Origin: Bacteroidota bacterium
Lineage (GTDB): Bacteria; Bacteroidota; Bacteroidia; Chitinophagales; Saprospiraceae
Direction: 5' to 3'
Assembly (NCBI GenBank): GCA_029781095.1
Contig: JAKOXM010000478.1
Location: 1-36,868, forward strand
Length of the DNA: 36,868 nucleotides
Shown here: in pieces, positions 1-36,868 of the stretch
Numbering within the stretch: the first letter of the stretch is position 1
Layout of the letters: each line of letters opens with the position of its first letter
Program-made: the position numbers and the translations under genes
Notes under the pieces: model-generated
Told to the model about the DNA's origin: nothing
The model's database searches: none
Seen by the model: the letters and a program-made list of their open reading frames with translations, nothing else

Positions 1-17
1 TGCGTGTTTGCTTTTTA

Positions 18-377
18 TCAGGAGGCGGTCTGCGATTTGTTCATCATGCCTTGCAGGAATCCGCCGATTCCGCCGCCGGCGCCACCCAGAACGCCGCCGC
101 CGAGAATAGATCCGAGCATGCCGTTGGCGCCGTCGCCCATCAGGCTGCCGAGAATGGAACCCATGCCGCCGTCGCCCATTGCGCTGGCCAGTCCGCCCAG
201 CACACCGCCACCCAGCAAGCCGGACAACCCGCCGTCTTTGGGGCTTTGTTTGAGAAAGAAACCGGCCGCAGCGCTGGCGAGGGGAACAGCCCAGGTGGCC
301 GAACCTGCCGGTAAAAATTTATTGGCCAAAAAGCCAACTACGAGGGTGATCAGGGAGGAGAGTAAAGTGTTCTTCAT
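18..377 (-). CDS. Small glycine-rich membrane protein, function unknown
   Basis: The product is 119 residues. The N-terminus (about residues 4-22) is a hydrophobic helix, followed by a second hydrophobic stretch (about 28-42) and a short charged linker, KQSPKDGG. From about residue 49 to 108 the chain is almost only G, L, A, S, M and I, in imperfect repeats built on GSILG, MGDG and GGGVLGG, resembling glycine-zipper or GxxxG helix-packing sequences. It ends in a polar tail, MNKSQTAS. I do not recognise a named family. A small inner-membrane protein or membrane-inserting oligomer is an inference from composition only. It lies downstream of the HxlR gene on the same strand but has its own promoter-like sequence, so co-transcription is uncertain. 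Confidence 0.7.
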   Translation of the reverse strand: MKNTLLSSLITLVVGFLANKFLPAGSATWAVPLASAAAGFFLKQSPKDGGLSGLLGGGVLGGLASAMGDGGMGSILGSLMGDGANGMLGSILGGGVLGGAGGGIGGFLQGMMNKSQTAS

Positions 378-434
378 GATGTGGCAATTCGTTTTGTAGA
401 AATGAACTTTACTGAATAATTATTCCGGTTTTGG

Positions 435-467
435 CAAAAGTATCCAAAAAACAAATTGAAAAAACAA
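435..467 (-). promoter_or_regulatory. Bacteroidota-type promoter for the glycine-rich protein gene
   Basis: Read on the minus strand there is TTG, a 22-nt spacer, then TACTTTTG, an exact match to the TAnnTTTG -7 element of Bacteroidota. The spacer is slightly longer than usual. The start codon lies about 57 nt downstream. Confidence 0.5.
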
Positions 468-501
468 CTTTGACTTGTTTTTTTGACCATGCCCGCCCAT
501 G

Positions 502-867
502 CTATCCGGGTGTCTGTACGTCATAACCACTTATTCCTTCCTCAGCCATGAGTTCCAGGCCGTAGCGGCGAATCGCCTCAATAATCGGGATGGCTCTTTG
601 ACCGCGTTCCGAAAGAGCGTATTCCACTTTTGGCGGCACCACCGGATATACTGTTCTGATGACAAATCCGTCCCTTTCCAGTTCGCGCAGTTGCGCCGTC
701 AGCATTTTGTGCGTCACGCGGGGGATGTCCTTTTTCAGTTCGCCATAGCGCAACACCTTGCCATTGAGTCGCCATAAAATGGGCATTTTCCAGGCGCCGC
801 CGATATGATCGAGTGCAAACTCAACAGGGTTGTAATACAACTTTTTTTGATGCAAAAATTCCGGCAT
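502..867 (-). CDS. HxlR-family winged-helix transcriptional regulator (cysteine-free)
   Basis: At 121 residues this is the usual length for the HxlR/DUF24 family of dimeric DNA-binding regulators. The family signature is visible: NPVEFALDHIGGAWKMPILWRL (residues 13-34, shown in part), the helix-turn-helix around YGELKKDIPRVTHKMLTAQL (41-60), and the wing ending in VEYALSERG (81-89). Characterised relatives (YodB, HypR, QorR) sense quinones, aldehydes or disulfide stress through a conserved cysteine just before the PVE motif. Here that position is Asn13 and the protein has no cysteine at all, so thiol sensing is excluded. The gene is divergent from a PfpI-family gene across a 130-bp gap, the classic arrangement for local control. 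Confidence 0.9.
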   Translation of the reverse strand: MPEFLHQKKLYYNPVEFALDHIGGAWKMPILWRLNGKVLRYGELKKDIPRVTHKMLTAQLRELERDGFVIRTVYPVVPPKVEYALSERGQRAIPIIEAIRRYGLELMAEEGISGYDVQTPG

Positions 868-903
868 TGTTTATAATATATTGGTTTTCAGTTTACTTTC
901 AAA

Positions 904-951
904 AAAGTTAGTATGGAACTTTCAGGTAAGTATATTGCCAAAGGTAGTATG
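904..951. promoter_or_regulatory. Candidate HxlR operator: two direct 12-mers in the divergent gap
   Basis: AAAGTTAGTATG (904-915) and AAAGGTAGTATG (940-951) differ at one base and start 36 bp apart. The second copy falls inside the promoter spacer of the PfpI-family gene, where a bound regulator would block RNA polymerase. A TACT...AGTA dyad also spans the first copy, as in known HxlR operators. Binding itself is inferred. Confidence 0.4.
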
Positions 952-965
952 TGCCTGCAACTTTG
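935..965 (+). promoter_or_regulatory. Putative promoter of the PfpI-family gene
   Basis: TTG, a 20-nt spacer and CAACTTTG (one mismatch to TAnnTTTG) sit about 32 nt before the ATG at 998. The spacing fits the Bacteroidota -33/-7 arrangement. Confidence 0.4.
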
Positions 966-997
966 TTCCATCATTCAATTAAAAATCATTGTTCGTT

Positions 998-1735
998 ATG
1001 AGTGCCAGCCTGAATATTACAAGTCCTAAAAAAATCGCTCTGATCGCCGCCAATCCTTCCATCAGCCAGACCACCGGCTGGCCGATCGGCTTCTGGTGGG
1101 CCGAACTGACCCACCCTTATTGGGAATTCACCGAGCGCGGCTATGAAGTCGACATTTATTCCCCTGACGGCGGCGCCTTGCAGGCCGACGGGTACAGCGA
1201 CCCCGAAGACGCGAGCGGATATTCGGCCCACGACCTGATCTCGCTGGGTTTTAAGAAATCGCCGCAACATGCCGCGCTGCTGGAAAATACCAGACCCATT
1301 TCGGCCATCGATGCAGACGCCTACGATGCTGTGTTCCTCGCCGGTGGTCAGTCCCCGATGTACACCTTCATTGACAACGAGCCGCTGCACAGGCTCGTAA
1401 CAGCGTTTTACGAAAAAGGAAAGGTACTGGGGATTGTGTGCCATGCCACCTGTATCTTGTTGAAAACCAGGACTTCCGACGGTAAATTGTTGGTGGAAGG
1501 CAAGACATGGACCGGTTTCGCTGACAGTGAAGAAGAATTTGCCGACGGTTTTGTCGGCAAACGCATCCAGCCATTCCGGATCGAGGAAGAGGCGAAAAAA
1601 ATACCGGGTACCAATTTCATCGTTGATGGCATGTTCAAGGCTTTTGCGGTGCGCGACGGCCGACTGATCACGGGCCAACAGCAGTACAGCGGCGCCGCAA
1701 CCGCCCGGCTGGTAATCGAGGCGCTCGGAGTGTAG
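998..1735 (+). CDS. DJ-1/PfpI-family (class I glutamine amidotransferase-like) protein
   Basis: The product is 245 residues. I chose the ATG at 998 over the in-frame TTG at 989, which adds only three residues. The DJ-1/PfpI fold is marked by the nucleophile elbow GIVCHAT with Cys148-His149, by AGGQSPMYTF (115-124), and by Glu36 in WWAELTHPY, the place where Hsp31-type members carry a catalytic-site acid. Length and the ANPS...FW..EL.HP N-terminus resemble Hsp31-like glyoxalase III or deglycase-like proteins, which handle methylglyoxal or act as stress chaperones. The precise activity cannot be read from sequence. Its position opposite an HxlR regulator suggests induction by electrophiles or aldehydes. 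It is likely cytosolic, with no signal peptide. Confidence 0.88.
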   Translation: MSASLNITSPKKIALIAANPSISQTTGWPIGFWWAELTHPYWEFTERGYEVDIYSPDGGALQADGYSDPEDASGYSAHDLISLGFKKSPQHAALLENTRPISAIDADAYDAVFLAGGQSPMYTFIDNEPLHRLVTAFYEKGKVLGIVCHATCILLKTRTSDGKLLVEGKTWTGFADSEEEFADGFVGKRIQPFRIEEEAKKIPGTNFIVDGMFKAFAVRDGRLITGQQQYSGAATARLVIEALGV

Positions 1736-1769
1736 GCTCGCCTAAACCTCGATTGCCTATGGGTGTTTT

Positions 1770-1913
1770 AGATAACTCGAATGCCACCTTAGCGTGAAGG
1801 CACTTAGATTACACAGATTGGATACAGATCGAATTGAAAAATCCGCGTCCAATCTATGTAATCCGAGTCCTGTTTTACTTGTAAAGTTGACGACATTAGA
1901 CTTCGAGTTATCT
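1770..1913. repeat. Nested palindromic intergenic element (REP/MITE-like), type A
   Basis: An outer perfect 12-bp inverted repeat, AGATAACTCGAA (1770-1781) and TTCGAGTTATCT (1902-1913), encloses an inner imperfect one (1807-1829 with 1841-1863, 19 of 23 pairs). The inner arm contains ACACAGATT, shared with the element at 5601-5683. It fills most of the 259-bp gap between two co-oriented genes and encodes nothing. It could act as a terminator or processing site, or be a non-autonomous mobile repeat. Confidence 0.75.
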
Positions 1914-1994
1914 GATAAATTTGCCTTACTAAATTATTGATAACCAATAAAGTATTTTTAACCCAACATTTGCACCATTAATCATTCAATACGT

Positions 1995-2609
1995 ATGAAC
2001 ATCGCAATTATCGGAACCGGCAACGTCGGCGGCGCATTGGCCGAACGTTGGGCAAAAGCCGGTCACACCATTCGCCTGGGCGTGCGGGATACGGCAGACT
2101 TCAAGGGCAAGGAACTGCTTCAATTGCCCAACACCACAGTCCACTCAGTCGCCGACGCCGTAAAAGCCTCGGACGTCGTGCTTATCGCAGCTACGCCGCA
2201 GTCAGTCATTGCAATTGCAGAACAGATGGGCGACGTGGCGGGAAAAGTCATCATCGATGCCATGAACTCGGTGCGCACGCGACCGGAGCCGTATGCCGAC
2301 ACTTTTGAGGCCTTAAAAGCCCTGACGAAAGGAGGACATCTCGTAAAATGCTTTAATTCAACGGGTTTTGAAAACATGCGCGACCCGTCTTACGGCGATA
2401 CAGCCATCGATATGTTTATGGCAGGCAGTTCGGAAAAGGGCAAAACGACAGCCCGGCAACTCGCTCTCGACGCGGGGTTTGCGGAATGTTACGATTTCGG
2501 CGGCGATGACAGGGTGTCCCTGCTGGAGCAGTTTGCGCTGGCCTGGATCAACCTCGCCATCATGCAGGGACAGGGCCGCGGCATAGCGTTCAAGGTGATC
2601 CGGCGTTGA
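1995..2609 (+). CDS. NADPH-dependent F420 reductase-like NAD(P)-binding oxidoreductase
   Basis: The product is 204 residues, close to the usual 200-220 for this family. A Rossmann dinucleotide-binding motif, IAIIGTGNVGGAL, opens the protein (GTGNVG at 7-12), followed by Arg27 and Arg31 after strand 2, compatible with NADP(H) preference. Further family features are VVLIAATPQSV (61-71), KVIIDAMN (84-91) and VKCFNSTGFENM (117-128). Homologues in organisms lacking F420 are annotated as NADP oxidoreductases of unknown substrate, so F420 use is not implied. It follows the PfpI-family gene but is separated by the type A repeat, so it probably has its own promoter. Confidence 0.88.
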   Translation: MNIAIIGTGNVGGALAERWAKAGHTIRLGVRDTADFKGKELLQLPNTTVHSVADAVKASDVVLIAATPQSVIAIAEQMGDVAGKVIIDAMNSVRTRPEPYADTFEALKALTKGGHLVKCFNSTGFENMRDPSYGDTAIDMFMAGSSEKGKTTARQLALDAGFAECYDFGGDDRVSLLEQFALAWINLAIMQGQGRGIAFKVIRR

Positions 2610-2963
2610 GGAAGGGTTGAGGTAGGTCAATTTTCAGATTTTACAACAGTTTCTAATAGAGTTGTTGTGGCATGATAATCAATTAGTCAGCCCAAAGCGC
2701 AAGCTGCGGGTTCTTTTATCGGCACTGCGACCAATTTGAGTTGATCATTCATCAAATGGTCAGGGCCATCTGATGAGTAAGCGGGCAGATTGATGTTTTT
2801 TTGAAAAAATACTGATTTTCAATCAGTTATATCGCAACAAGTATGTAAAATATGTCCGCGTCTGGTTGGGCGATTTTCAATCAAAAATGGCCAAAAATGA
2901 ACACTCCCATTAGAAATTACTAACTTTTCTCAACCATCTCAACCAAAAAGCCTGCACACATGA
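2610..2963. other. 354-bp convergent intergenic region
   Basis: It lies between two converging genes and holds no credible reading frame. Visible structure is a hairpin with a T-run (annotated separately) and the 10-mer GATTTTCAAT followed by CA in two places (around 2814 and 2873). Otherwise it is AT-rich and featureless to me. Confidence 0.6.
2803..2827 (-). terminator. Possible intrinsic terminator of the DUF3536 gene
   Basis: On the minus strand ACTGATT-GAA-AATCAGT forms a 7-bp stem with a 3-nt loop, directly followed by ATTTTTTC. It is about 140 nt beyond the stop codon. The stem is AT-rich and therefore weak. Confidence 0.4.
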
Positions 2964-5417
2964 TCACACCTTCAGCCGGACTTTCAGCAGCCCTGCAAGG
3001 TGCTCGAAAGCGGCTTTCCATTCTTCGTTGACGAATACCCACTGCCCTTTCCGGTAACCTTTGGTGAGCAGGTAGAAAACATTCTGGCTTTTCCATACGT
3101 CCGGTTTCAGGTTCATTTTTTGAACGATCAGGAGCACGTCGTTGAGCCATTCCACGCGCGGCGCGGAAGATTCGTCGAGGTCGATTCGCTCTATTTCGCG
3201 ATAGATGCGCTCGCTGATGGCGTGCCGGACGGCATCCTCGTCGTTCAGTTTTACCTGCCAGCGTTTCAGGTTGTTCGAAACGCGCAGGAGGGTCCTGACG
3301 TCTTTGGTATCCCCGTTTTTGAAATAATTGAGCAGGTCGGCATTCAGCACGTAAGCGGCGATATTGCGCCATGCATCCGGGAGGGGCAGATCGGCTTCTT
3401 CCAGCCCCGTCATCAGCTGGTAGTTGGAATCGAAAACGCTGCGGAAAGACGACTCCGCCGAAGCGAGGCCGGACTCGGTGATCTCGCGGATGATCTTGAT
3501 TTTTTCGTCGGCGAAGAGGCTCGCCAGCGTGAATTTTTCAGGGCCGAAATACTCCTGCAGGATACCGATCACCTCGCCGAGGTTGGCGATATTGAAAGCC
3601 TTCGAGGTGCGCTGCCACATGGCGTCGAAGGTCGTGCGGTTCATGGTAGCGCTGATGTTGCCGATGATGTGCTGCTGGCCGAGGTACAGCACGGCAAAGC
3701 AAAACGTTTTTTCCGCATGACTCAGCCGGGAGCGAATGGACAGGCGCCCCGCGGTGTACTGCGTTTTGCCGGCTTCTATTTTTTCGAAAAACTCGACCGA
3801 GGCCTTGTAATTGAACAAATCCAGCCCTTCCGGATCGTCTTCGAACAGCGAGGCGACGGCGAAGTGCATCGCCACGCGTTCGAGCGTCACGCGTGTGGGC
3901 ACGACGTTTTGCAGAAAACTGACGGCACCGTTTGCCACGACATTACTCGGGGCTTCCGCCAGGCGTTTGTTGAATTCCGCGTGCAGATCGACGTGCGCCA
4001 CGTCTTTTGCGTAGTCCAGTGCCCGCAGGGCATACTGGAGAATCTGGTTGGTTTCGATACCGGAAATCTCGTCGAAAAACCAGCCGCAACTCGTGTACAT
4101 CAGTACTGCGTGCCGCTGTATTTCGAGCAGCCGCAACACCATGACCTCTTCCAGCAGACTCAGCTCCCGGCGGGCGTGTTTGGCCAGAAATTTGGCCACG
4201 TTCTCGTTGCTGCGGTCGAGCATCACCTCGATGTATTCGTTGCGGGCGACCCAGGGGTCGCGCAGGAATCGGGCTGCTTCCCGTTCGAATATGGGTGCCA
4301 GCTGGTCGCGCAGCCAGTCGAGCGTGTCGCGCAGGGGCTTTCTCCAGCGCTGGTGCCAGCCCGGTCGCCCGCCGGTGTTGCAGCCGCAATCCGCGCGCCA
4401 GCGTTCGATACCGTGCACGCAGCTCCACGACGAATTTTCGTGTATCTCTACTTCCCATTCCGGAGGGAAGAGCTCGAGAAACTGGCCATAATTGGTCAGT
4501 TTGGCTTCGCCGTTGTCCTCGATCTGGTTGAGACAATCGGCCAGCGCCATTTCGCCGAAACGGTGGTGGTGGCCATAGCTCTCGCCGTCGGTAGCGATAT
4601 GGGCGATTTGCGGTTCGTCGTTTTCGTCAAAAAGGCTCGTCATTCTTTTCGCGAAATTGGTGCCGCTGTTGAGCAGGCCGTTGAAAGCAACCTCCTGGGC
4701 GATACCGCCGTGGTAGAAATAGAGCGCGATGCGCCTGCCGCTCGGCAACAGACACCAGTACGGGTGCCGGGTATCGATGCTTTCGGAATTCACGCTTTGC
4801 CATTCGGCCGGCGAATCGCTTTCGGCAGCCTGTTTTTTATCCGGGTCGGGCATGCGGCGCACGGCTTTTGCCTGCCGCGGCGCAAGTACGGTGAACTGGA
4901 TGCCATGTGACGCCAGTACTTCGAGCGTATCGGTGTTCACGGCCGTTTCGGCCAGCCAGATACCCTCGGGGTAGCGGCCGAAACGGTGTTCAAAATCGCG
5001 GATACCCCACCAGACTTGCGTCACCTTGTCGCGATAGTTGCAAAGGGGCATGATGAGGTGGCTGTGCACCTGTGCCAGTGCCGAGCCGTGACCGCCGAAG
5101 CGCTCCATGCTGCGTTTGTCGGCCTGCTGGATGAGGTTGTACGCTTCCGGGTCGTTTTGTTCCAGCCAGGTCAGCAGGGTAGGGCCGAAGTTCCAGGAAA
5201 TGCGATTATAGTTGTTCCGGATCTTGGTGATCCAGCCCTGGTCGTCGAGGATGCGGGCAGCCGCATTGGGTGCGTAGCATTCGAAGTTGATGCGGGCGTT
5301 CCAGTCGTGGAAGGGCCTCGCCGATTCCTGTTGTTCTACGATTTCGAGCCACGCATTTTCTCGGGGCGGTTGATAGAAATGACCGTGTATACACACGTAC
5401 TTATTTGAACGGGACAT
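2964..5417 (-). CDS. Glycoside hydrolase family 57-like protein with DUF3536
   Basis: The product is 817 residues. The N-terminal half is a GH57-type (beta/alpha)7 barrel: CIHGHFYQPPREN (9-21) matches the family's HxxxQP region, GIWLAETAVN carries Glu157 at the nucleophile position, and IATDGESYGHHH carries Asp277 at the acid/base position. The C-terminal half, from about residue 330, corresponds to DUF3536. GH57 enzymes act on alpha-glucans by retention (amylases, glucanotransferases, branching enzymes). This DUF3536 subgroup is not biochemically defined as far as I know, so the substrate is an inference. There is no signal peptide, suggesting a cytoplasmic role such as storage-polysaccharide turnover. 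The gene is monocistronic and divergent from recJ. Confidence 0.88.
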   Translation of the reverse strand: MSRSNKYVCIHGHFYQPPRENAWLEIVEQQESARPFHDWNARINFECYAPNAAARILDDQGWITKIRNNYNRISWNFGPTLLTWLEQNDPEAYNLIQQADKRSMERFGGHGSALAQVHSHLIMPLCNYRDKVTQVWWGIRDFEHRFGRYPEGIWLAETAVNTDTLEVLASHGIQFTVLAPRQAKAVRRMPDPDKKQAAESDSPAEWQSVNSESIDTRHPYWCLLPSGRRIALYFYHGGIAQEVAFNGLLNSGTNFAKRMTSLFDENDEPQIAHIATDGESYGHHHRFGEMALADCLNQIEDNGEAKLTNYGQFLELFPPEWEVEIHENSSWSCVHGIERWRADCGCNTGGRPGWHQRWRKPLRDTLDWLRDQLAPIFEREAARFLRDPWVARNEYIEVMLDRSNENVAKFLAKHARRELSLLEEVMVLRLLEIQRHAVLMYTSCGWFFDEISGIETNQILQYALRALDYAKDVAHVDLHAEFNKRLAEAPSNVVANGAVSFLQNVVPTRVTLERVAMHFAVASLFEDDPEGLDLFNYKASVEFFEKIEAGKTQYTAGRLSIRSRLSHAEKTFCFAVLYLGQQHIIGNISATMNRTTFDAMWQRTSKAFNIANLGEVIGILQEYFGPEKFTLASLFADEKIKIIREITESGLASAESSFRSVFDSNYQLMTGLEEADLPLPDAWRNIAAYVLNADLLNYFKNGDTKDVRTLLRVSNNLKRWQVKLNDEDAVRHAISERIYREIERIDLDESSAPRVEWLNDVLLIVQKMNLKPDVWKSQNVFYLLTKGYRKGQWVFVNEEWKAAFEHLAGLLKVRLKV

Positions 5418-5422
5418 GGGTG

Positions 5423-5430
5423 CTAAAATA
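5423..5430 (-). promoter_or_regulatory. Possible -7 element immediately before the DUF3536 start
   Basis: TATTTTAG (one mismatch to TAnnTTTG) lies 5 nt before the ATG on the minus strand. No TTG occurs at the right distance upstream. If functional, the mRNA would be leaderless. Confidence 0.3.
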
Positions 5431-5600
5431 GGAAGTTTAAAGGGTTTCGGGGCCGGGGCAAGATTCAGGGTCGTGGTGCATCCTGTGCTTGCAAATTATC
5501 TGGTGGCGGGCACTCTGTCGCGGCTGTGCATTTTAATGCCGCGAGGTCATTGAGACGTTTGAAACGGATTTTGTAACAAGGAGCAAAAATCGTCCCAAAC

Positions 5601-5683
5601 GTTCATGGCACGCTGATGACACAGATTTGACTGATTTTCACTGTGTAAATCTTTTTAATCTGTGTCATCAGTGTGCCATGAAC
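5601..5683. repeat. Palindromic intergenic element (REP/MITE-like), type B
   Basis: Arms of 27 bp (5601-5627 and 5657-5683) pair at 26 positions around a 29-bp loop. They begin GTTCATGGCAC and end GTGCCATGAAC, and contain ACACAGATT/AATCTGTGT in common with the type A element. The single mismatch leaves a G-T wobble in RNA. No coding potential. Confidence 0.85.
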
Positions 5684-5868
5684 AGCAAAGATACCCGGTC
5701 AGTTGAGAATTCATTCAACCAAATTGCGAACCCTTCATCTTTTTACCGAACAGGCCGTCTTCCGGGACGAATCAATTCCTGCCGGAACAGAATATATTTC
5801 CTGATAACACGGATTGATACACCTTTGCGCCGAATGAAAGCGTTCGATGGCCGGAACTGCTCGGTATA

Positions 5869-5900
5869 TTGGAATTTTTCGGAACTTTTCCTTATTTTAG
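5869..5900 (+). promoter_or_regulatory. Putative recJ promoter
   Basis: TTG, a 21-nt spacer and TATTTTAG (one mismatch to TAnnTTTG) end 29 nt before the ATG chosen for recJ, which supports that start. Confidence 0.45.
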
Positions 5901-5929
5901 CCCCCCGAAACGAAAATATCTCCCCAACT

Positions 5930-7639
5930 ATGATATCTCCCCGCTGGCAAATCATTCCGACCGACGAAAAGGCCGAACAAGCGCTCCACGCCGCCCTGGG
6001 GATTGATCCCCTGTTTTGCCGGCTGCTTGTCCAGCGCGGGATCAAAACATTCGAAGAAGCCCGCACTTTTTTCCGCCCGAGCCTCGACGATCTTCACAAT
6101 CCATTCTTAATGAAGGATATGGAGCTTGCTGTAGAGCGTCTCGACAAGGCCCTGAAAGGCGACGAACGCATACTGCTGTACGGCGATTACGACGTAGACG
6201 GCACCACCAGCGTGGCGCTGATGTTTGCCTTTCTGTCCGGTTTTTACCGCAACCTCGATTATTACCTGCCCGACCGCGAGAAGGAAGGCTACGGCGTGAG
6301 CCTGCGCAGTGTGGAATATGCCCGCGAGACCGGCGCCACCCTTGTCATTGCGATCGATTGCGGTATCAAGGCCCACGAAGCGGTTGCGCTGGCAAAAAAT
6401 TATGGCATCGACTTCATCGTCTGTGATCATCACCTGCCGGAAGGCGGCCTGCCCGGCGCGGTGGCCAACCTCGATCCCAAGCGCGCCGACTGCCCTTATC
6501 CCTACAAGGAACTCAGCGGCTGCGGCATCGCTTTCAAACTGGCCCAGGCGCTGGCGTTACACAACAACACCCCACAGGAAGAGATCGATGATCTGCTCGA
6601 TCTCGTGGCCGTCAGCATTGCCTGCGATATTGTTCCCATAACCGGCGAAAACCGTATCCTGACCCATTTCGGACTACACCGGCTGAACCATTCTCCCCGC
6701 GTCGGCCTCTGGGCGCTGATGAGCCGGATCAACCGGCCATTTCCCCTCGATGTGAGTGATCTGGTATTCGGCCTCGGGCCGCTCATCAACGCGGCGGGTC
6801 GCCTCGGCGATGCGCGCGATGCCGTGCGGCTGCTCCTTTCCGCCGACCGAAACAGCGCTGTCGACTGCGCCGGTACCCTCGTGCAGCGCAATCGCGAGCG
6901 CCGCGAAGTAGACTATGCCATGGCCGATCAGGCGCGGCAGCGATTCACGGACCAGCCGGGCTGGGAAACACGAAAAAGCATTGTTTTATACAGCCCCGAA
7001 TGGCATAAAGGCATCATCGGCATTTCCGCCAGCCGCATGACCGAGGCCTTCCACAAACCCTCGGTCATCCTGACGCACAGCAATGACCGGGCCGTAGGCT
7101 CGGCGCGCTCGGTGCCGGGTTTCGATCTGTATGCGGCGCTGCAGCAATGCGAAGACCTGTTTTATTCCTACGGCGGCCATGCCCACGCAGCGGGTATGCA
7201 AATGCCGGTAGAAAATGTGGAGGCTTTTGCCGAACGTTTCGAATCCATTGCCTGCGAGCAGATCAGCCCGGAAAATACCAGCCCGCTGCTGGATGTGTGC
7301 GCCCGGATCAGGCTCGAAGACATCACGCCGGCGTTCCGGCGATTGTTGCGCCAGTTCGAGCCGTTCGGTCCCCACAACCGCAACCCCGTCTTCTGGGCGG
7401 AAGGGGTGGTCGACACTGGCCAGAGCCGCCCGTTGTCCAACAACCACATACGCCTGTCGATACGACATGCCGACGGCCGGAAAGTGATGACGGGTATCGG
7501 TTTCGGCCTGGCGGAAGCGTTCGAAAAAGTAAAAAACGGAGCGTTCGATATTGCGTTCAACCTGCGCGAAGAACAATGGCGCGGAGAGTCGATGTTGTCG
7601 TTGCAGGCAAAAGATTTCAGGCAAACGAAGACGAATTAA
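5930..7639 (+). CDS. recJ: Single-stranded-DNA-specific exonuclease RecJ
   Basis: The product is 569 residues, the normal RecJ length. A longer in-frame reading from 5627 would add 101 residues that run through a palindromic repeat and match nothing, so I chose the ATG at 5930. The DHH phosphoesterase motifs are intact: GDYDVDG (85-91), AIDCG with Asp143, CDHHLPEGG with Asp166-His167-His168, and SIACDIVP with Asp233, the ligands for Mn/Mg ions. GPLINAAGRLGDA (283-295) and the DHHA1 motif YGGHAHAAG (414-422) follow, then the OB-fold region with FGPHNRNPVF (479-488). RecJ degrades single-stranded DNA 5' to 3' in recombination, base-excision and mismatch repair, in the cytoplasm. A PpiC-type isomerase gene follows on the same strand after 172 bp. 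Confidence 0.96.
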   Translation: MISPRWQIIPTDEKAEQALHAALGIDPLFCRLLVQRGIKTFEEARTFFRPSLDDLHNPFLMKDMELAVERLDKALKGDERILLYGDYDVDGTTSVALMFAFLSGFYRNLDYYLPDREKEGYGVSLRSVEYARETGATLVIAIDCGIKAHEAVALAKNYGIDFIVCDHHLPEGGLPGAVANLDPKRADCPYPYKELSGCGIAFKLAQALALHNNTPQEEIDDLLDLVAVSIACDIVPITGENRILTHFGLHRLNHSPRVGLWALMSRINRPFPLDVSDLVFGLGPLINAAGRLGDARDAVRLLLSADRNSAVDCAGTLVQRNRERREVDYAMADQARQRFTDQPGWETRKSIVLYSPEWHKGIIGISASRMTEAFHKPSVILTHSNDRAVGSARSVPGFDLYAALQQCEDLFYSYGGHAHAAGMQMPVENVEAFAERFESIACEQISPENTSPLLDVCARIRLEDITPAFRRLLRQFEPFGPHNRNPVFWAEGVVDTGQSRPLSNNHIRLSIRHADGRKVMTGIGFGLAEAFEKVKNGAFDIAFNLREEQWRGESMLSLQAKDFRQTKTN

Positions 7640-7735
7640 CACATTTGTCACCTGCTCTCTGTTGCCTGAATGGTCATTCTCCTGTTAACATTTTCAAAAA
7701 CGCGTGTCCAAACCGGCGCTTTTGGCGCCCTTTCC

Positions 7736-7743
7736 TAATTTTG
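7736..7743 (+). promoter_or_regulatory. -7 element upstream of the PpiC-domain gene
   Basis: TAATTTTG is an exact TAnnTTTG match 68 nt before the ATG. I see no TTG at the standard distance upstream, so the promoter is tentative. Confidence 0.35.
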
Positions 7744-7811
7744 CCCGCCCAAATCCTTCCCCTCCTCCTTTTACAGGTGGATTTATTGCAAACCAATCTA
7801 CGCCGTCTACC

Positions 7812-9776: not shown

Positions 9777-10000
9777 TTCATTGTTGCACTGTTAGATTGC
9801 TTCATTGTTGGTGCGTTGCGCTGAAATCTGACGGAAGGAGCAACAGGCATATTAATAATCAAGGGCTATAAGTGGTTATACTTCAACCATTTATAGCCCT
9901 TGATTATTAAAGGTTAAACACCGGCAATGACACTGAAGCAATGCAACAATCTAACAGTGAATCAATGAAGCAATGCAACAATGAAACAATGCAACAATAA
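9777..10000. repeat. Inverted 8-bp-period arrays flanking a hairpin
   Basis: On the left, four 8-bp units (ttcattg-type, 9776-9807) and on the right, on the opposite strand, eight units (9931-9994, consensus CAATGMAR, for example CAATGAAG, CAATGCAA) plus a partial one flank a strong hairpin. The flanks face each other, so the whole gap between two convergent genes is an imperfect inverted repeat. There is no reading frame. Confidence 0.8.
9852..9910. terminator. 26-bp-arm hairpin, possible bidirectional terminator
   Basis: TTAATAATCAAGGGCTATAA and what follows pair with the stretch ending in GATTATTAA, giving arms 9852-9877 and 9885-9910 with one mismatch and a 7-nt loop. It lies between convergent genes, so it could terminate both. 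Its length and AT-rich ends also resemble a miniature mobile repeat. Confidence 0.6.
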
Positions 10001-10002
10001 CC

Positions 10003-11277: not shown

Positions 11278-11365
11278 ACTTTTGCGACTTTTTAAAATAG
11301 AGCGTCAGGTGTTTTTCGTGGCCGGAATGGCCCAACTGATTGCAAACATCCAAATTATTTTCATC

Positions 11366-11381
11366 CTGTGTGCGTACACAG
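11366..11381. promoter_or_regulatory. Candidate operator palindrome between transporter and nucleotidyltransferase
   Basis: CTGTGTGCGTACACAG is symmetric except for one G-T pair in its core. It lies in the 206-bp gap between two divergent genes, about 90 bp from the transporter start and 103 bp from the other. No regulator gene is adjacent, so the factor is unknown. Confidence 0.35.
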
Positions 11382-11483
11382 CCTTTAAAAAGAACAGGTG
11401 CCGATTATTTTTTCTTTAAACCTGCATTTCAGGAACATTCTTTGTGACACCCAGGCACCTGCTTAACATAACACAAACGATCG

Positions 11484-12419: not shown

Positions 12420-12439
12420 CCCGCCCGCAGTAACGCCGA

Positions 12440-12511
12440 CCCTGAAACCCTGAAACTTTGTAACCTTGTAACCATCTAACCCTGTAACCTTGTAACTCTG
12501 TAACCCTGAAA
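12440..12511. repeat. Nine-copy 8-bp tandem repeat between convergent genes
   Basis: Nine units keep exact 8-bp register: CCCTGAAA twice, CTTTGTAA, CCTTGTAA, CCATCTAA, CCCTGTAA, CCTTGTAA, CTCTGTAA, CCCTGAAA. The consensus is CCYTGTAA (TTACARGG on the other strand). The array fills most of the 95-bp gap and stops 3 bp from the stop codon of the minus-strand gene. The period is not a multiple of three and the array is not translated. Confidence 0.9.
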
Positions 12512-12514
12512 CCT

Positions 12515-13501: not shown

Positions 13502-13515
13502 GATAGCGTATTTTT

Positions 13516-23353: not shown

Positions 23354-23367
23354 AAAAATACGCTATC

Positions 23368-24354: not shown

Positions 24355-24357
24355 AGG

Positions 24358-24429
24358 TTTCAGGGTTACAGAGTTACAAGGTTACAGGGTTAGATGGTTA
24401 CAAGGTTACAAAGTTTCAGGGTTTCAGGG
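24358..24429. repeat. Nine-copy 8-bp tandem repeat (second copy)
   Basis: Mirror of 12440-12511, reading TTACARGG-type units on the plus strand and starting 3 bp after the Gfo/Idh/MocA stop codon. Confidence 0.88.
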
Positions 24430-24449
24430 TCGGCGTTACTGCGGGCGGG

Positions 24450-25385: not shown

Positions 25386-25487
25386 CGATCGTTTGTGTTA
25401 TGTTAAGCAGGTGCCTGGGTGTCACAAAGAATGTTCCTGAAATGCAGGTTTAAAGAAAAAATAATCGGCACCTGTTCTTTTTAAAGG

Positions 25488-25503
25488 CTGTGTACGCACA
25501 CAG
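25488..25503. promoter_or_regulatory. Candidate operator palindrome (second copy)
   Basis: CTGTGTACGCACACAG, mirror of 11366-11381, in the divergent gap before the transporter gene. Confidence 0.33.
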
Positions 25504-25591
25504 GATGAAAATAATTTGGATGTTTGCAATCAGTTGGGCCATTCCGGCCACGAAAAACACCTGACGCTCTATTTTAAAAAGTCGCAAAAGT

Positions 25592-26866: not shown

Positions 26867-26868
26867 GG

Positions 26869-27092
26869 TTATTGTTGCATTGTTTCATTGTTGCATTGCT
26901 TCATTGATTCACTGTTAGATTGTTGCATTGCTTCAGTGTCATTGCCGGTGTTTAACCTTTAATAATCAAGGGCTATAAATGGTTGAAGTATAACCACTTA
27001 TAGCCCTTGATTATTAATATGCCTGTTGCTCCTTCCGTCAGATTTCAGCGCAACGCACCAACAATGAAGCAATCTAACAGTGCAACAATGAA
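26869..27092. repeat. Inverted 8-bp-period arrays flanking a hairpin (second copy)
   Basis: Mirror of 9777-10000. The longer array now lies on the left side of the hairpin. Confidence 0.78.
26959..27017. terminator. 26-bp-arm hairpin, possible bidirectional terminator (second copy)
   Basis: Mirror of 9852-9910, between the convergent transporter and PpiC genes. Confidence 0.58.
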
Positions 27093-29057: not shown

Positions 29058-29125
29058 GGTAGACGGCGTAGATTGGTTTGCAATAAATCCACCTGTAAAA
29101 GGAGGAGGGGAAGGATTTGGGCGGG

Positions 29126-29133
29126 CAAAATTA
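29126..29133 (-). promoter_or_regulatory. -7 element upstream of the PpiC-domain gene (second copy)
   Basis: TAATTTTG on the minus strand, mirror of 7736-7743. Confidence 0.33.
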
Positions 29134-29229
29134 GGAAAGGGCGCCAAAAGCGCCGGTTTGGACACGCGTTTTTGAAAATGTTAACAGGAGAATGACCATT
29201 CAGGCAACAGAGAGCAGGTGACAAATGTG

Positions 29230-30939
29230 TTAATTCGTCTTCGTTTGCCTGAAATCTTTTGCCTGCAACGACAACATCGACTCTCCGCGCCATTGTTCTT
29301 CGCGCAGGTTGAACGCAATATCGAACGCTCCGTTTTTTACTTTTTCGAACGCTTCCGCCAGGCCGAAACCGATACCCGTCATCACTTTCCGGCCGTCGGC
29401 ATGTCGTATCGACAGGCGTATGTGGTTGTTGGACAACGGGCGGCTCTGGCCAGTGTCGACCACCCCTTCCGCCCAGAAGACGGGGTTGCGGTTGTGGGGA
29501 CCGAACGGCTCGAACTGGCGCAACAATCGCCGGAACGCCGGCGTGATGTCTTCGAGCCTGATCCGGGCGCACACATCCAGCAGCGGGCTGGTATTTTCCG
29601 GGCTGATCTGCTCGCAGGCAATGGATTCGAAACGTTCGGCAAAAGCCTCCACATTTTCTACCGGCATTTGCATACCCGCTGCGTGGGCATGGCCGCCGTA
29701 GGAATAAAACAGGTCTTCGCATTGCTGCAGCGCCGCATACAGATCGAAACCCGGCACCGAGCGCGCCGAGCCTACGGCCCGGTCATTGCTGTGCGTCAGG
29801 ATGACCGAGGGTTTGTGGAAGGCCTCGGTCATGCGGCTGGCGGAAATGCCGATGATGCCTTTATGCCATTCGGGGCTGTATAAAACAATGCTTTTTCGTG
29901 TTTCCCAGCCCGGCTGGTCCGTGAATCGCTGCCGCGCCTGATCGGCCATGGCATAGTCTACTTCGCGGCGCTCGCGATTGCGCTGCACGAGGGTACCGGC
30001 GCAGTCGACAGCGCTGTTTCGGTCGGCGGAAAGGAGCAGCCGCACGGCATCGCGCGCATCGCCGAGGCGACCCGCCGCGTTGATGAGCGGCCCGAGGCCG
30101 AATACCAGATCACTCACATCGAGGGGAAATGGCCGGTTGATCCGGCTCATCAGCGCCCAGAGGCCGACGCGGGGAGAATGGTTCAGCCGGTGTAGTCCGA
30201 AATGGGTCAGGATACGGTTTTCGCCGGTTATGGGAACAATATCGCAGGCAATGCTGACGGCCACGAGATCGAGCAGATCATCGATCTCTTCCTGTGGGGT
30301 GTTGTTGTGTAACGCCAGCGCCTGGGCCAGTTTGAAAGCGATGCCGCAGCCGCTGAGTTCCTTGTAGGGATAAGGGCAGTCGGCGCGCTTGGGATCGAGG
30401 TTGGCCACCGCGCCGGGCAGGCCGCCTTCCGGCAGGTGATGATCACAGACGATGAAGTCGATGCCATAATTTTTTGCCAGCGCAACCGCTTCGTGGGCCT
30501 TGATACCGCAATCGATCGCAATGACAAGGGTGGCGCCGGTCTCGCGGGCATATTCCACACTGCGCAGGCTCACGCCGTAGCCTTCCTTCTCGCGGTCGGG
30601 CAGGTAATAATCGAGGTTGCGGTAAAAACCGGACAGAAAGGCAAACATCAGCGCCACGCTGGTGGTGCCGTCTACGTCGTAATCGCCGTACAGCAGTATG
30701 CGTTCGTCGCCTTTCAGGGCCTTGTCGAGACGCTCTACAGCAAGCTCCATATCCTTCATTAAGAATGGATTGTGAAGATCGTCGAGGCTCGGGCGGAAAA
30801 AAGTGCGGGCTTCTTCGAATGTTTTGATCCCGCGCTGGACAAGCAGCCGGCAAAACAGGGGATCAATCCCCAGGGCGGCGTGGAGCGCTTGTTCGGCCTT
30901 TTCGTCGGTCGGAATGATTTGCCAGCGGGGAGATATCAT
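29230..30939 (-). CDS. recJ: Single-stranded-DNA-specific exonuclease RecJ (second copy)
   Basis: Exact inverted copy of 5930-7639: 569 residues with intact DHH and DHHA1 motifs. Two identical full-length recJ genes within 37 kb would be very unusual for a chromosome, which is one reason to suspect the palindrome is not native. Confidence 0.94.
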   Translation of the reverse strand: MISPRWQIIPTDEKAEQALHAALGIDPLFCRLLVQRGIKTFEEARTFFRPSLDDLHNPFLMKDMELAVERLDKALKGDERILLYGDYDVDGTTSVALMFAFLSGFYRNLDYYLPDREKEGYGVSLRSVEYARETGATLVIAIDCGIKAHEAVALAKNYGIDFIVCDHHLPEGGLPGAVANLDPKRADCPYPYKELSGCGIAFKLAQALALHNNTPQEEIDDLLDLVAVSIACDIVPITGENRILTHFGLHRLNHSPRVGLWALMSRINRPFPLDVSDLVFGLGPLINAAGRLGDARDAVRLLLSADRNSAVDCAGTLVQRNRERREVDYAMADQARQRFTDQPGWETRKSIVLYSPEWHKGIIGISASRMTEAFHKPSVILTHSNDRAVGSARSVPGFDLYAALQQCEDLFYSYGGHAHAAGMQMPVENVEAFAERFESIACEQISPENTSPLLDVCARIRLEDITPAFRRLLRQFEPFGPHNRNPVFWAEGVVDTGQSRPLSNNHIRLSIRHADGRKVMTGIGFGLAEAFEKVKNGAFDIAFNLREEQWRGESMLSLQAKDFRQTKTN

Positions 30940-30968
30940 AGTTGGGGAGATATTTTCGTTTCGGGGGG

Positions 30969-31000
30969 CTAAAATAAGGAAAAGTTCCGAAAAATTCCAA
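30969..31000 (-). promoter_or_regulatory. Putative recJ promoter (second copy)
   Basis: TTG-N21-TATTTTAG on the minus strand, ending 29 nt before the recJ ATG. Confidence 0.43.
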
Positions 31001-31185
31001 TATACCGAGCAGTTCCGGCCATCGAACGCTTTCATTCGGCGCAAAGGTGTATCAATCCGTGTTATCAGGAAATATATTCTGTTCCGGCAGGAATTGATTC
31101 GTCCCGGAAGACGGCCTGTTCGGTAAAAAGATGAAGGGTTCGCAATTTGGTTGAATGAATTCTCAACTGACCGGGTATCTTTGCT

Positions 31186-31268
31186 GTTCATGGCACACTG
31201 ATGACACAGATTAAAAAGATTTACACAGTGAAAATCAGTCAAATCTGTGTCATCAGCGTGCCATGAAC
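31186..31268. repeat. Palindromic intergenic element, type B (second copy)
   Basis: Mirror of 5601-5683, with 27-bp arms and one mismatch. Confidence 0.82.
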
Positions 31269-31438
31269 GTTTGGGACGATTTTTGCTCCTTGTTACAAAA
31301 TCCGTTTCAAACGTCTCAATGACCTCGCGGCATTAAAATGCACAGCCGCGACAGAGTGCCCGCCACCAGATAATTTGCAAGCACAGGATGCACCACGACC
31401 CTGAATCTTGCCCCGGCCCCGAAACCCTTTAAACTTCC

Positions 31439-31446
31439 TATTTTAG
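31439..31446 (+). promoter_or_regulatory. Possible -7 element before the DUF3536 start (second copy)
   Basis: TATTTTAG followed by CACCC and the ATG, mirror of 5423-5430. Confidence 0.28.
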
Positions 31447-31451
31447 CACCC

Positions 31452-33905
31452 ATGTCCCGTTCAAATAAGTACGTGTGTATACACGGTCATTTCTATCAAC
31501 CGCCCCGAGAAAATGCGTGGCTCGAAATCGTAGAACAACAGGAATCGGCGAGGCCCTTCCACGACTGGAACGCCCGCATCAACTTCGAATGCTACGCACC
31601 CAATGCGGCTGCCCGCATCCTCGACGACCAGGGCTGGATCACCAAGATCCGGAACAACTATAATCGCATTTCCTGGAACTTCGGCCCTACCCTGCTGACC
31701 TGGCTGGAACAAAACGACCCGGAAGCGTACAACCTCATCCAGCAGGCCGACAAACGCAGCATGGAGCGCTTCGGCGGTCACGGCTCGGCACTGGCACAGG
31801 TGCACAGCCACCTCATCATGCCCCTTTGCAACTATCGCGACAAGGTGACGCAAGTCTGGTGGGGTATCCGCGATTTTGAACACCGTTTCGGCCGCTACCC
31901 CGAGGGTATCTGGCTGGCCGAAACGGCCGTGAACACCGATACGCTCGAAGTACTGGCGTCACATGGCATCCAGTTCACCGTACTTGCGCCGCGGCAGGCA
32001 AAAGCCGTGCGCCGCATGCCCGACCCGGATAAAAAACAGGCTGCCGAAAGCGATTCGCCGGCCGAATGGCAAAGCGTGAATTCCGAAAGCATCGATACCC
32101 GGCACCCGTACTGGTGTCTGTTGCCGAGCGGCAGGCGCATCGCGCTCTATTTCTACCACGGCGGTATCGCCCAGGAGGTTGCTTTCAACGGCCTGCTCAA
32201 CAGCGGCACCAATTTCGCGAAAAGAATGACGAGCCTTTTTGACGAAAACGACGAACCGCAAATCGCCCATATCGCTACCGACGGCGAGAGCTATGGCCAC
32301 CACCACCGTTTCGGCGAAATGGCGCTGGCCGATTGTCTCAACCAGATCGAGGACAACGGCGAAGCCAAACTGACCAATTATGGCCAGTTTCTCGAGCTCT
32401 TCCCTCCGGAATGGGAAGTAGAGATACACGAAAATTCGTCGTGGAGCTGCGTGCACGGTATCGAACGCTGGCGCGCGGATTGCGGCTGCAACACCGGCGG
32501 GCGACCGGGCTGGCACCAGCGCTGGAGAAAGCCCCTGCGCGACACGCTCGACTGGCTGCGCGACCAGCTGGCACCCATATTCGAACGGGAAGCAGCCCGA
32601 TTCCTGCGCGACCCCTGGGTCGCCCGCAACGAATACATCGAGGTGATGCTCGACCGCAGCAACGAGAACGTGGCCAAATTTCTGGCCAAACACGCCCGCC
32701 GGGAGCTGAGTCTGCTGGAAGAGGTCATGGTGTTGCGGCTGCTCGAAATACAGCGGCACGCAGTACTGATGTACACGAGTTGCGGCTGGTTTTTCGACGA
32801 GATTTCCGGTATCGAAACCAACCAGATTCTCCAGTATGCCCTGCGGGCACTGGACTACGCAAAAGACGTGGCGCACGTCGATCTGCACGCGGAATTCAAC
32901 AAACGCCTGGCGGAAGCCCCGAGTAATGTCGTGGCAAACGGTGCCGTCAGTTTTCTGCAAAACGTCGTGCCCACACGCGTGACGCTCGAACGCGTGGCGA
33001 TGCACTTCGCCGTCGCCTCGCTGTTCGAAGACGATCCGGAAGGGCTGGATTTGTTCAATTACAAGGCCTCGGTCGAGTTTTTCGAAAAAATAGAAGCCGG
33101 CAAAACGCAGTACACCGCGGGGCGCCTGTCCATTCGCTCCCGGCTGAGTCATGCGGAAAAAACGTTTTGCTTTGCCGTGCTGTACCTCGGCCAGCAGCAC
33201 ATCATCGGCAACATCAGCGCTACCATGAACCGCACGACCTTCGACGCCATGTGGCAGCGCACCTCGAAGGCTTTCAATATCGCCAACCTCGGCGAGGTGA
33301 TCGGTATCCTGCAGGAGTATTTCGGCCCTGAAAAATTCACGCTGGCGAGCCTCTTCGCCGACGAAAAAATCAAGATCATCCGCGAGATCACCGAGTCCGG
33401 CCTCGCTTCGGCGGAGTCGTCTTTCCGCAGCGTTTTCGATTCCAACTACCAGCTGATGACGGGGCTGGAAGAAGCCGATCTGCCCCTCCCGGATGCATGG
33501 CGCAATATCGCCGCTTACGTGCTGAATGCCGACCTGCTCAATTATTTCAAAAACGGGGATACCAAAGACGTCAGGACCCTCCTGCGCGTTTCGAACAACC
33601 TGAAACGCTGGCAGGTAAAACTGAACGACGAGGATGCCGTCCGGCACGCCATCAGCGAGCGCATCTATCGCGAAATAGAGCGAATCGACCTCGACGAATC
33701 TTCCGCGCCGCGCGTGGAATGGCTCAACGACGTGCTCCTGATCGTTCAAAAAATGAACCTGAAACCGGACGTATGGAAAAGCCAGAATGTTTTCTACCTG
33801 CTCACCAAAGGTTACCGGAAAGGGCAGTGGGTATTCGTCAACGAAGAATGGAAAGCCGCTTTCGAGCACCTTGCAGGGCTGCTGAAAGTCCGGCTGAAGG
33901 TGTGA
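31452..33905 (+). CDS. Glycoside hydrolase family 57-like protein with DUF3536 (second copy)
   Basis: Exact inverted copy of 2964-5417: an 817-residue cytoplasmic alpha-glucan-active enzyme candidate with HGHFYQP, Glu157 and Asp277 at the GH57 catalytic positions. Confidence 0.86.
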   Translation: MSRSNKYVCIHGHFYQPPRENAWLEIVEQQESARPFHDWNARINFECYAPNAAARILDDQGWITKIRNNYNRISWNFGPTLLTWLEQNDPEAYNLIQQADKRSMERFGGHGSALAQVHSHLIMPLCNYRDKVTQVWWGIRDFEHRFGRYPEGIWLAETAVNTDTLEVLASHGIQFTVLAPRQAKAVRRMPDPDKKQAAESDSPAEWQSVNSESIDTRHPYWCLLPSGRRIALYFYHGGIAQEVAFNGLLNSGTNFAKRMTSLFDENDEPQIAHIATDGESYGHHHRFGEMALADCLNQIEDNGEAKLTNYGQFLELFPPEWEVEIHENSSWSCVHGIERWRADCGCNTGGRPGWHQRWRKPLRDTLDWLRDQLAPIFEREAARFLRDPWVARNEYIEVMLDRSNENVAKFLAKHARRELSLLEEVMVLRLLEIQRHAVLMYTSCGWFFDEISGIETNQILQYALRALDYAKDVAHVDLHAEFNKRLAEAPSNVVANGAVSFLQNVVPTRVTLERVAMHFAVASLFEDDPEGLDLFNYKASVEFFEKIEAGKTQYTAGRLSIRSRLSHAEKTFCFAVLYLGQQHIIGNISATMNRTTFDAMWQRTSKAFNIANLGEVIGILQEYFGPEKFTLASLFADEKIKIIREITESGLASAESSFRSVFDSNYQLMTGLEEADLPLPDAWRNIAAYVLNADLLNYFKNGDTKDVRTLLRVSNNLKRWQVKLNDEDAVRHAISERIYREIERIDLDESSAPRVEWLNDVLLIVQKMNLKPDVWKSQNVFYLLTKGYRKGQWVFVNEEWKAAFEHLAGLLKVRLKV

Positions 33906-34259
33906 TCATGTGTGCAGGCTTTTTGGTTGAGATGGTTGAGAAAAGTTAGTAATTTCTAATGGGAGTGTTCATTTTTGGCCATTTTTGATTGAAAATCGCC
34001 CAACCAGACGCGGACATATTTTACATACTTGTTGCGATATAACTGATTGAAAATCAGTATTTTTTCAAAAAAACATCAATCTGCCCGCTTACTCATCAGA
34101 TGGCCCTGACCATTTGATGAATGATCAACTCAAATTGGTCGCAGTGCCGATAAAAGAACCCGCAGCTTGCGCTTTGGGCTGACTAATTGATTATCATGCC
34201 ACAACAACTCTATTAGAAACTGTTGTAAAATCTGAAAATTGACCTACCTCAACCCTTCC
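33906..34259. other. Convergent intergenic region (second copy)
   Basis: Mirror of 2610-2963; only the hairpin with a T-run stands out. Confidence 0.55.
34042..34066 (+). terminator. Possible intrinsic terminator of the DUF3536 gene (second copy)
   Basis: ACTGATTGAAAATCAGT followed by ATTTTTTC on the plus strand, mirror of 2803-2827. Confidence 0.38.
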
Positions 34260-34874
34260 TCAACGCCGGATCACCTTGAACGCTATGCCGCGGCCCTGTC
34301 CCTGCATGATGGCGAGGTTGATCCAGGCCAGCGCAAACTGCTCCAGCAGGGACACCCTGTCATCGCCGCCGAAATCGTAACATTCCGCAAACCCCGCGTC
34401 GAGAGCGAGTTGCCGGGCTGTCGTTTTGCCCTTTTCCGAACTGCCTGCCATAAACATATCGATGGCTGTATCGCCGTAAGACGGGTCGCGCATGTTTTCA
34501 AAACCCGTTGAATTAAAGCATTTTACGAGATGTCCTCCTTTCGTCAGGGCTTTTAAGGCCTCAAAAGTGTCGGCATACGGCTCCGGTCGCGTGCGCACCG
34601 AGTTCATGGCATCGATGATGACTTTTCCCGCCACGTCGCCCATCTGTTCTGCAATTGCAATGACTGACTGCGGCGTAGCTGCGATAAGCACGACGTCCGA
34701 GGCTTTTACGGCGTCGGCGACTGAGTGGACTGTGGTGTTGGGCAATTGAAGCAGTTCCTTGCCCTTGAAGTCTGCCGTATCCCGCACGCCCAGGCGAATG
34801 GTGTGACCGGCTTTTGCCCAACGTTCGGCCAATGCGCCGCCGACGTTGCCGGTTCCGATAATTGCGATGTTCAT
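34260..34874 (-). CDS. NADPH-dependent F420 reductase-like oxidoreductase (second copy)
   Basis: Exact inverted copy of 1995-2609: a 204-residue Rossmann-fold protein opening with IAIIGTGNVGG. Substrate unknown. Confidence 0.86.
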   Translation of the reverse strand: MNIAIIGTGNVGGALAERWAKAGHTIRLGVRDTADFKGKELLQLPNTTVHSVADAVKASDVVLIAATPQSVIAIAEQMGDVAGKVIIDAMNSVRTRPEPYADTFEALKALTKGGHLVKCFNSTGFENMRDPSYGDTAIDMFMAGSSEKGKTTARQLALDAGFAECYDFGGDDRVSLLEQFALAWINLAIMQGQGRGIAFKVIRR

Positions 34875-34955
34875 ACGTATTGAATGATTAATGGTGCAAA
34901 TGTTGGGTTAAAAATACTTTATTGGTTATCAATAATTTAGTAAGGCAAATTTATC

Positions 34956-35099
34956 AGATAACTCGAAGTCTAATGTCGTCAACTTTACAAGTAAAACAGG
35001 ACTCGGATTACATAGATTGGACGCGGATTTTTCAATTCGATCTGTATCCAATCTGTGTAATCTAAGTGCCTTCACGCTAAGGTGGCATTCGAGTTATCT
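34956..35099. repeat. Nested palindromic element, type A (second copy)
   Basis: Mirror of 1770-1913, bounded by AGATAACTCGAA and TTCGAGTTATCT. Confidence 0.72.
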
Positions 35100-35133
35100 A
35101 AAACACCCATAGGCAATCGAGGTTTAGGCGAGC

Positions 35134-35871
35134 CTACACTCCGAGCGCCTCGATTACCAGCCGGGCGGTTGCGGCGCCGCTGTACTGCTGTTGGCCCGTG
35201 ATCAGTCGGCCGTCGCGCACCGCAAAAGCCTTGAACATGCCATCAACGATGAAATTGGTACCCGGTATTTTTTTCGCCTCTTCCTCGATCCGGAATGGCT
35301 GGATGCGTTTGCCGACAAAACCGTCGGCAAATTCTTCTTCACTGTCAGCGAAACCGGTCCATGTCTTGCCTTCCACCAACAATTTACCGTCGGAAGTCCT
35401 GGTTTTCAACAAGATACAGGTGGCATGGCACACAATCCCCAGTACCTTTCCTTTTTCGTAAAACGCTGTTACGAGCCTGTGCAGCGGCTCGTTGTCAATG
35501 AAGGTGTACATCGGGGACTGACCACCGGCGAGGAACACAGCATCGTAGGCGTCTGCATCGATGGCCGAAATGGGTCTGGTATTTTCCAGCAGCGCGGCAT
35601 GTTGCGGCGATTTCTTAAAACCCAGCGAGATCAGGTCGTGGGCCGAATATCCGCTCGCGTCTTCGGGGTCGCTGTACCCGTCGGCCTGCAAGGCGCCGCC
35701 GTCAGGGGAATAAATGTCGACTTCATAGCCGCGCTCGGTGAATTCCCAATAAGGGTGGGTCAGTTCGGCCCACCAGAAGCCGATCGGCCAGCCGGTGGTC
35801 TGGCTGATGGAAGGATTGGCGGCGATCAGAGCGATTTTTTTAGGACTTGTAATATTCAGGCTGGCACTCAT
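35134..35871 (-). CDS. DJ-1/PfpI-family protein (second copy)
   Basis: Exact inverted copy of 998-1735: a 245-residue stress or glyoxalase-like protein with the Cys148-His149 nucleophile elbow GIVCHAT. Confidence 0.86.
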   Translation of the reverse strand: MSASLNITSPKKIALIAANPSISQTTGWPIGFWWAELTHPYWEFTERGYEVDIYSPDGGALQADGYSDPEDASGYSAHDLISLGFKKSPQHAALLENTRPISAIDADAYDAVFLAGGQSPMYTFIDNEPLHRLVTAFYEKGKVLGIVCHATCILLKTRTSDGKLLVEGKTWTGFADSEEEFADGFVGKRIQPFRIEEEAKKIPGTNFIVDGMFKAFAVRDGRLITGQQQYSGAATARLVIEALGV

Positions 35872-35903
35872 AACGAACAATGATTTTTAATTGAATGATG
35901 GAA

Positions 35904-35934
35904 CAAAGTTGCAGGCACATACTACCTTTGGCAA
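35904..35934 (-). promoter_or_regulatory. Putative promoter of the PfpI-family gene (second copy)
   Basis: TTG-N20-CAACTTTG on the minus strand, mirror of 935-965. Confidence 0.38.
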
Positions 35935-35965
35935 TATACTTACCTGAAAGTTCCATACTAACTTT
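35918..35965. promoter_or_regulatory. Candidate HxlR operator (second copy)
   Basis: CATACTACCTTT and CATACTAACTTT, the mirror of the left-arm direct repeats, 36 bp apart. Confidence 0.38.
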
Positions 35966-36001
35966 TTTGAAAGTAAACTGAAAACCAATATATTATAAAC
36001 A

Positions 36002-36367
36002 ATGCCGGAATTTTTGCATCAAAAAAAGTTGTATTACAACCCTGTTGAGTTTGCACTCGATCATATCGGCGGCGCCTGGAAAATGCCCATTTTATGGCGA
36101 CTCAATGGCAAGGTGTTGCGCTATGGCGAACTGAAAAAGGACATCCCCCGCGTGACGCACAAAATGCTGACGGCGCAACTGCGCGAACTGGAAAGGGACG
36201 GATTTGTCATCAGAACAGTATATCCGGTGGTGCCGCCAAAAGTGGAATACGCTCTTTCGGAACGCGGTCAAAGAGCCATCCCGATTATTGAGGCGATTCG
36301 CCGCTACGGCCTGGAACTCATGGCTGAGGAAGGAATAAGTGGTTATGACGTACAGACACCCGGATAG
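36002..36367 (+). CDS. HxlR-family transcriptional regulator, cysteine-free (second copy)
   Basis: Exact inverted copy of 502-867: a 121-residue winged-helix regulator with Asn13 in place of the usual sensing cysteine. Confidence 0.88.
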   Translation: MPEFLHQKKLYYNPVEFALDHIGGAWKMPILWRLNGKVLRYGELKKDIPRVTHKMLTAQLRELERDGFVIRTVYPVVPPKVEYALSERGQRAIPIIEAIRRYGLELMAEEGISGYDVQTPG

Positions 36368-36401
36368 CATGGGCGGGCATGGTCAAAAAAACAAGTCAAA
36401 G

Positions 36402-36434
36402 TTGTTTTTTCAATTTGTTTTTTGGATACTTTTG
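36402..36434 (+). promoter_or_regulatory. Promoter of the glycine-rich protein gene (second copy)
   Basis: TTG-N22-TACTTTTG on the plus strand, mirror of 435-467. Confidence 0.48.
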
Positions 36435-36491
36435 CCAAAACCGGAATAATTATTCAGTAAAGTTCATTTCTACAAAACGAATTGCCACATC

Positions 36492-36851
36492 ATGAAGAAC
36501 ACTTTACTCTCCTCCCTGATCACCCTCGTAGTTGGCTTTTTGGCCAATAAATTTTTACCGGCAGGTTCGGCCACCTGGGCTGTTCCCCTCGCCAGCGCTG
36601 CGGCCGGTTTCTTTCTCAAACAAAGCCCCAAAGACGGCGGGTTGTCCGGCTTGCTGGGTGGCGGTGTGCTGGGCGGACTGGCCAGCGCAATGGGCGACGG
36701 CGGCATGGGTTCCATTCTCGGCAGCCTGATGGGCGACGGCGCCAACGGCATGCTCGGATCTATTCTCGGCGGCGGCGTTCTGGGTGGCGCCGGCGGCGGA
36801 ATCGGCGGATTCCTGCAAGGCATGATGAACAAATCGCAGACCGCCTCCTGA
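36492..36851 (+). CDS. Small glycine-rich membrane protein, function unknown (second copy)
   Basis: Exact inverted copy of 18-377: 119 residues, two N-terminal hydrophobic segments and a long Gly/Leu/Ser repeat region. Its stop codon lies 17 bp from the window end. Confidence 0.68.
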   Translation: MKNTLLSSLITLVVGFLANKFLPAGSATWAVPLASAAAGFFLKQSPKDGGLSGLLGGGVLGGLASAMGDGGMGSILGSLMGDGANGMLGSILGGGVLGGAGGGIGGFLQGMMNKSQTAS

Positions 36852-36868
36852 TAAAAAGCAAACACGCA

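Follow-up and report, generated by a model that had tools for sequence, protein, structure and literature searches.

Mirrored, or palindromic, contigs have been encountered in single-cell cyanobacterial genomes, where they were judged very likely to be products of the assembly and discarded (PMC12755884). At the level of individual reads, palindromic or foldback reads have reportedly been found in several studies (PMC6218980; PMC13265396; PMC12870357; PMC3946424), as have MDA chimeras (PMC1855051). The passages of the viralFlye paper that were consulted do not describe mirrored contigs (PMC8862349). The window analysed in this study, a stretch of 36,868 bp, is a complete contig (G000:C709:1-36868, referred to below as C709), the boundaries of which coincide with those of the window. 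It resembles the palindromic or inverted chimeric reads reported from whole-genome amplification, and the reported long-read foldbacks, in that a sequence is followed by its own reverse complement, but those cases are single reads, whereas here a whole contig is mirrored (PMC6218980; PMC13265396; PMC12870357; PMC1855051), so that the fold was probably extended during assembly. It also differs from the mirrored contigs described for single-cell genomes (PMC12755884) in belonging to a draft genome of 830 contigs with a total of 5.96 Mb, a completeness of 95.31% and an estimated contamination of 6.63%.

Structure and gene content of the contig

The reverse complement of the window is the window itself, with 0 mismatches over 36,868 positions, and the axis lies between positions 18434 and 18435 without a spacer, which bears out the original prediction of a perfect 2 x 18,434-bp palindrome. 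The left arm (1..18434, plus strand) is ordinary gene-bearing DNA and the only independent sequence of the window, while the right arm (18435..36868, minus strand) is its exact mirror without a single mismatch and is most likely spurious. According to the rule of three applied to 0 differences in 18,434 positions, the divergence between the arms is at most about 1.6e-4 per site (95% upper bound). Both outer edges of the contig are mirror ends at which the contig stops. Among the readable sequences of the genome, in which contigs below 3 kb seem unreadable, the first 30 bases of C709 match at two mirror places only, and the same is true of the 40 bases preceding the axis.

A Pfam scan covered eleven proteins of the arm. 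In order, these are an HxlR-type regulator (502..867, minus strand), a DJ-1/PfpI protein (989..1735, plus), an F420-dependent-type NADP oxidoreductase (1995..2609, plus), a GH57/DUF3536 protein (2964..5417, minus), RecJ with its DHH, DHHA1 and RecJ_OB domains (5627..7639, plus), a PpiC-type peptidyl-prolyl isomerase (7704..9776, plus), an MFS transporter (10003..11277, minus), a nucleotidyltransferase-like protein, the Pfam match of which is below its cut-off (11484..12419, plus), a Gfo/Idh/MocA oxidoreductase (12515..13501, minus) and an FGE-sulfatase domain protein (13516..14529, minus), which is also found upstream of the first ThuA copy in two relatives (G036 and G017). The last gene before the axis (14791..18387, plus) was recognised from its open reading frame, its Pfam domains and its relatives, and encodes a ThuA-GSDH-PKD-cytochrome c-CBM6 protein of 1198 amino acids, whose nearest relatives among named records come from drafts that bear the titles Saprospiraceae, Saprospirales, Bacteroidetes/Bacteroidota, Chitinophagales and Lewinellaceae. 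Its stop codon ends at 18387, 47 bp short of the axis. An ATG lies 16 bp past this stop and could be the start of a second copy, although only ten codons remain before the axis, not enough to decide this.

Several short stretches of the arm recur elsewhere: the one at approximately 1785-1908 has a match at another place in the same genome, and those at approximately 5601-5683, 9921-10007, 13691-13779 and 14432-14523 match many places in relatives. Judged by these matches, they look like short dispersed repeats.

Comparison with other contigs of the same genome

As a control, 66 of the 830 contigs of the same assembly were sampled. Of these, 22, all shorter than 3 kb, consisted of N throughout and were dropped, which left 44 readable contigs; two of them (C300 and C170) were examined for their first 20,000 bases only, and one (C186) was included because it was a hit in the searches described below. 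None of the 44 readable contigs in the sample equals its own reverse complement, and the idea that palindromic contigs are a habit of this assembly was rejected on this basis. Spacerless palindromes in these contigs reach a half-arm of at most 11 bases, and exact inverted repeats, whatever their spacing, a length of at most 34 bases. Since 11 bases is the longest spacerless half-arm in the readable sample from the same genome, a chance origin of a palindrome spanning 36,868 positions is excluded. Spacerless half-arms reach at most 37 bases in 83 other fetched loci of more than 1 kb, a count in which duplicates are retained. The longest belongs to a perfect 74-bp palindrome in G036, which was retrieved twice (L032, centre 19025, and L048, centre 20308) and lies 142 bp from a contig end; it may be terminator-like or another small fold-back.

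The G+C content of the window is 0.538, compared with 0.52 for the 44 readable contigs. As this value falls inside the range of 0.488-0.546 spanned by the 28 readable contigs longer than 5 kb, C709 is no obvious stranger in the bin.

The region downstream of the ThuA gene in relatives

A search with the final 3.7 kb of the arm gave matches in 41 of the 42 genomes searched, the genome itself included. The survey of relatives comprised 53 loci (58, minus 8 duplicates, plus 3 further ones taken from that search), 47 of them with at least 1 kb of sequence past the best hit, and at a threshold of E 1e-8 an inverted ThuA copy was found in none of the 53. The 23 loci that share 60% or more amino acid identity were treated as close relatives. 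In 19 of them the C-terminus is complete and the downstream sequence amounts to at least 1 kb. None of these 19 has an inverted copy downstream of the ThuA gene, while a direct, diverged tandem copy follows in four (L030, L032, L050 and L053) and is absent in the other 15. Among the 23 close relatives, two contigs stop 60 and 8 bp past the ThuA stop codon (L031 and L049, respectively) and two others end inside the gene (L054 and L062), which indicates that assemblies break at this site elsewhere too; three further contigs start inside the gene (L050, L052 and L058).

Synteny of the whole arm is not conserved in the eight relatives examined, and the argument from relatives therefore rests on the block around the ThuA gene. 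In G036, the genes for RecJ, the peptidyl-prolyl isomerase, the MFS transporter and the nucleotidyltransferase are colinear on one contig (G036:C192), with other arm genes on other contigs, and in a relative assembled into seven contigs (G015) homologues of arm genes are spread over several large contigs (C2, C5 and C6).

What follows the ThuA/PQQ gene in relatives, a comparison proposed along with the original prediction, can be read from contig C27 of G036, in which the FGE-sulfatase gene (minus strand) is followed by ThuA copy 1 (plus) and, as a direct tandem paralogue, copy 2 (plus), and then by PGA_cap (minus), DUF4230 (plus), an open reading frame of 155 amino acids (plus) and Nudix (plus). 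Among the relatives, the whole block up to Nudix was seen in G036 only. The second copy in G036 aligns only from residue 271 onward, that is, without the ThuA domain.

A corresponding block is present in the genome under study. Contig C186, 3234 bp in length, opens, when reversed, with the end of a ThuA paralogue, of which 46 residues align with the ThuA protein of the window at 70% identity, and continues with PGA_cap, DUF4230, the 155-amino acid open reading frame and Nudix. Because this block has the same order and orientations as the one that follows the ThuA copies on G036:C27, C186 is very probably the true continuation of C709, with the rest of this second ThuA copy lying between them. 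By analogy with G036, in which the block comes after copies 1 and 2, the sequence expected past position 18434 would be a direct tandem paralogue and not a mirror, although for this genome the join of C709 and C186 is itself deduced from the gene order. When the genome was searched with the ThuA protein of the window and the second copy of G036 as queries, the body of the second copy was not found in the readable assembly, and only the tail on C186 and weaker homologues on C215, C823, C602, C358 and C155 appeared. The missing body may sit on a contig of less than 3 kb, as the contigs sampled in that size range consisted of N.

Origin of the palindrome

We consider C709 to be a fold-back artefact and no real biological feature, with a probability of roughly 0.95. 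This assessment is based on the block carried by C186 and on the zero difference between the arms over exactly one contig, together with the prior expectation, which is not a result of this analysis, that such artefacts are commoner than the natural case. It agrees with the original prediction, which had favoured a fold-back artefact and is supported by the block shared between C186 and G036 and by the lack of an inverted copy in the 19 close relatives with sufficient downstream sequence.

The most likely course of events would be that a single stretch of 18,434 bp from a Saprospiraceae-like draft genome entered the contig twice, first in the forward direction and then reverse-complemented. 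Assembly would have come to a halt where the ThuA gene gives way to its diverged direct tandem copy, and the contig end may there have been tied to the complementary strand of the same contig, either by a chimeric read of the hairpin type or through a brief self-complementary overlap in the assembly graph. The assembler would then have retraced the same unitig to its beginning, and a second arm identical to the first and two outer ends with the same sequence would follow from this. What speaks against the artefact is that the path from C709 through the second copy to C186 is not seen in the readable assembly, that 15 of the 19 close relatives lack a tandem copy and that G036 was the one relative in which the complete block was observed. 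In addition, a genuine perfect palindrome assembled from short reads would look much like C709, and the presence of C186 would also be compatible with a real duplication located elsewhere.

The first alternative is a real and very recent tail-to-tail inverted duplication, carried by the sampled strain or by a fraction of its population, which we regard as very improbable. The exact mirror without a spacer fits such an event, the geometry of the contig taken alone is compatible with it, and if the event were very recent and strain-specific, relatives would say little about it. On the other hand, it requires that the two arms do not differ at a single position in 18.4 kb, the block that should lie past the axis sits on C186 in the arrangement known from G036, and an inverted copy was found at none of the 53 relative loci. 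Bacteria that carry SbcCD do not stably maintain long palindromes without a spacer, which is a further point against the duplication, but the argument is weak here, since the genome has yielded only one SbcD match, partial and below the cut-off. In its specific form, namely a subpopulation in which recent fold-back replication has produced a spacerless inverted duplication of 18.4 kb whose axis lies shortly after ThuA copy 1, there is likewise only a slight chance that this explanation is correct.

If C709 came from a linear replicon whose end is a covalently closed hairpin, reading round that end on both strands would also yield a spacerless mirror, but this is extremely improbable, given that no telomere resolvase or replicon gene is found among the eleven arm proteins scanned with Pfam, that arm-gene homologues in G015 lie on several large contigs and that the gene block runs on past the site in G036.

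Implications for the genome

With the fold-back artefact as the preferred reading, C709 is above all a quality warning, as 18.4 kb are doubled in this draft and RecJ and ten other annotated genes are counted twice. The mirrored contig may thereby add to the contamination estimate of the genome. Comparing every contig with its reverse complement is a simple screen with which such cases would be recognised.
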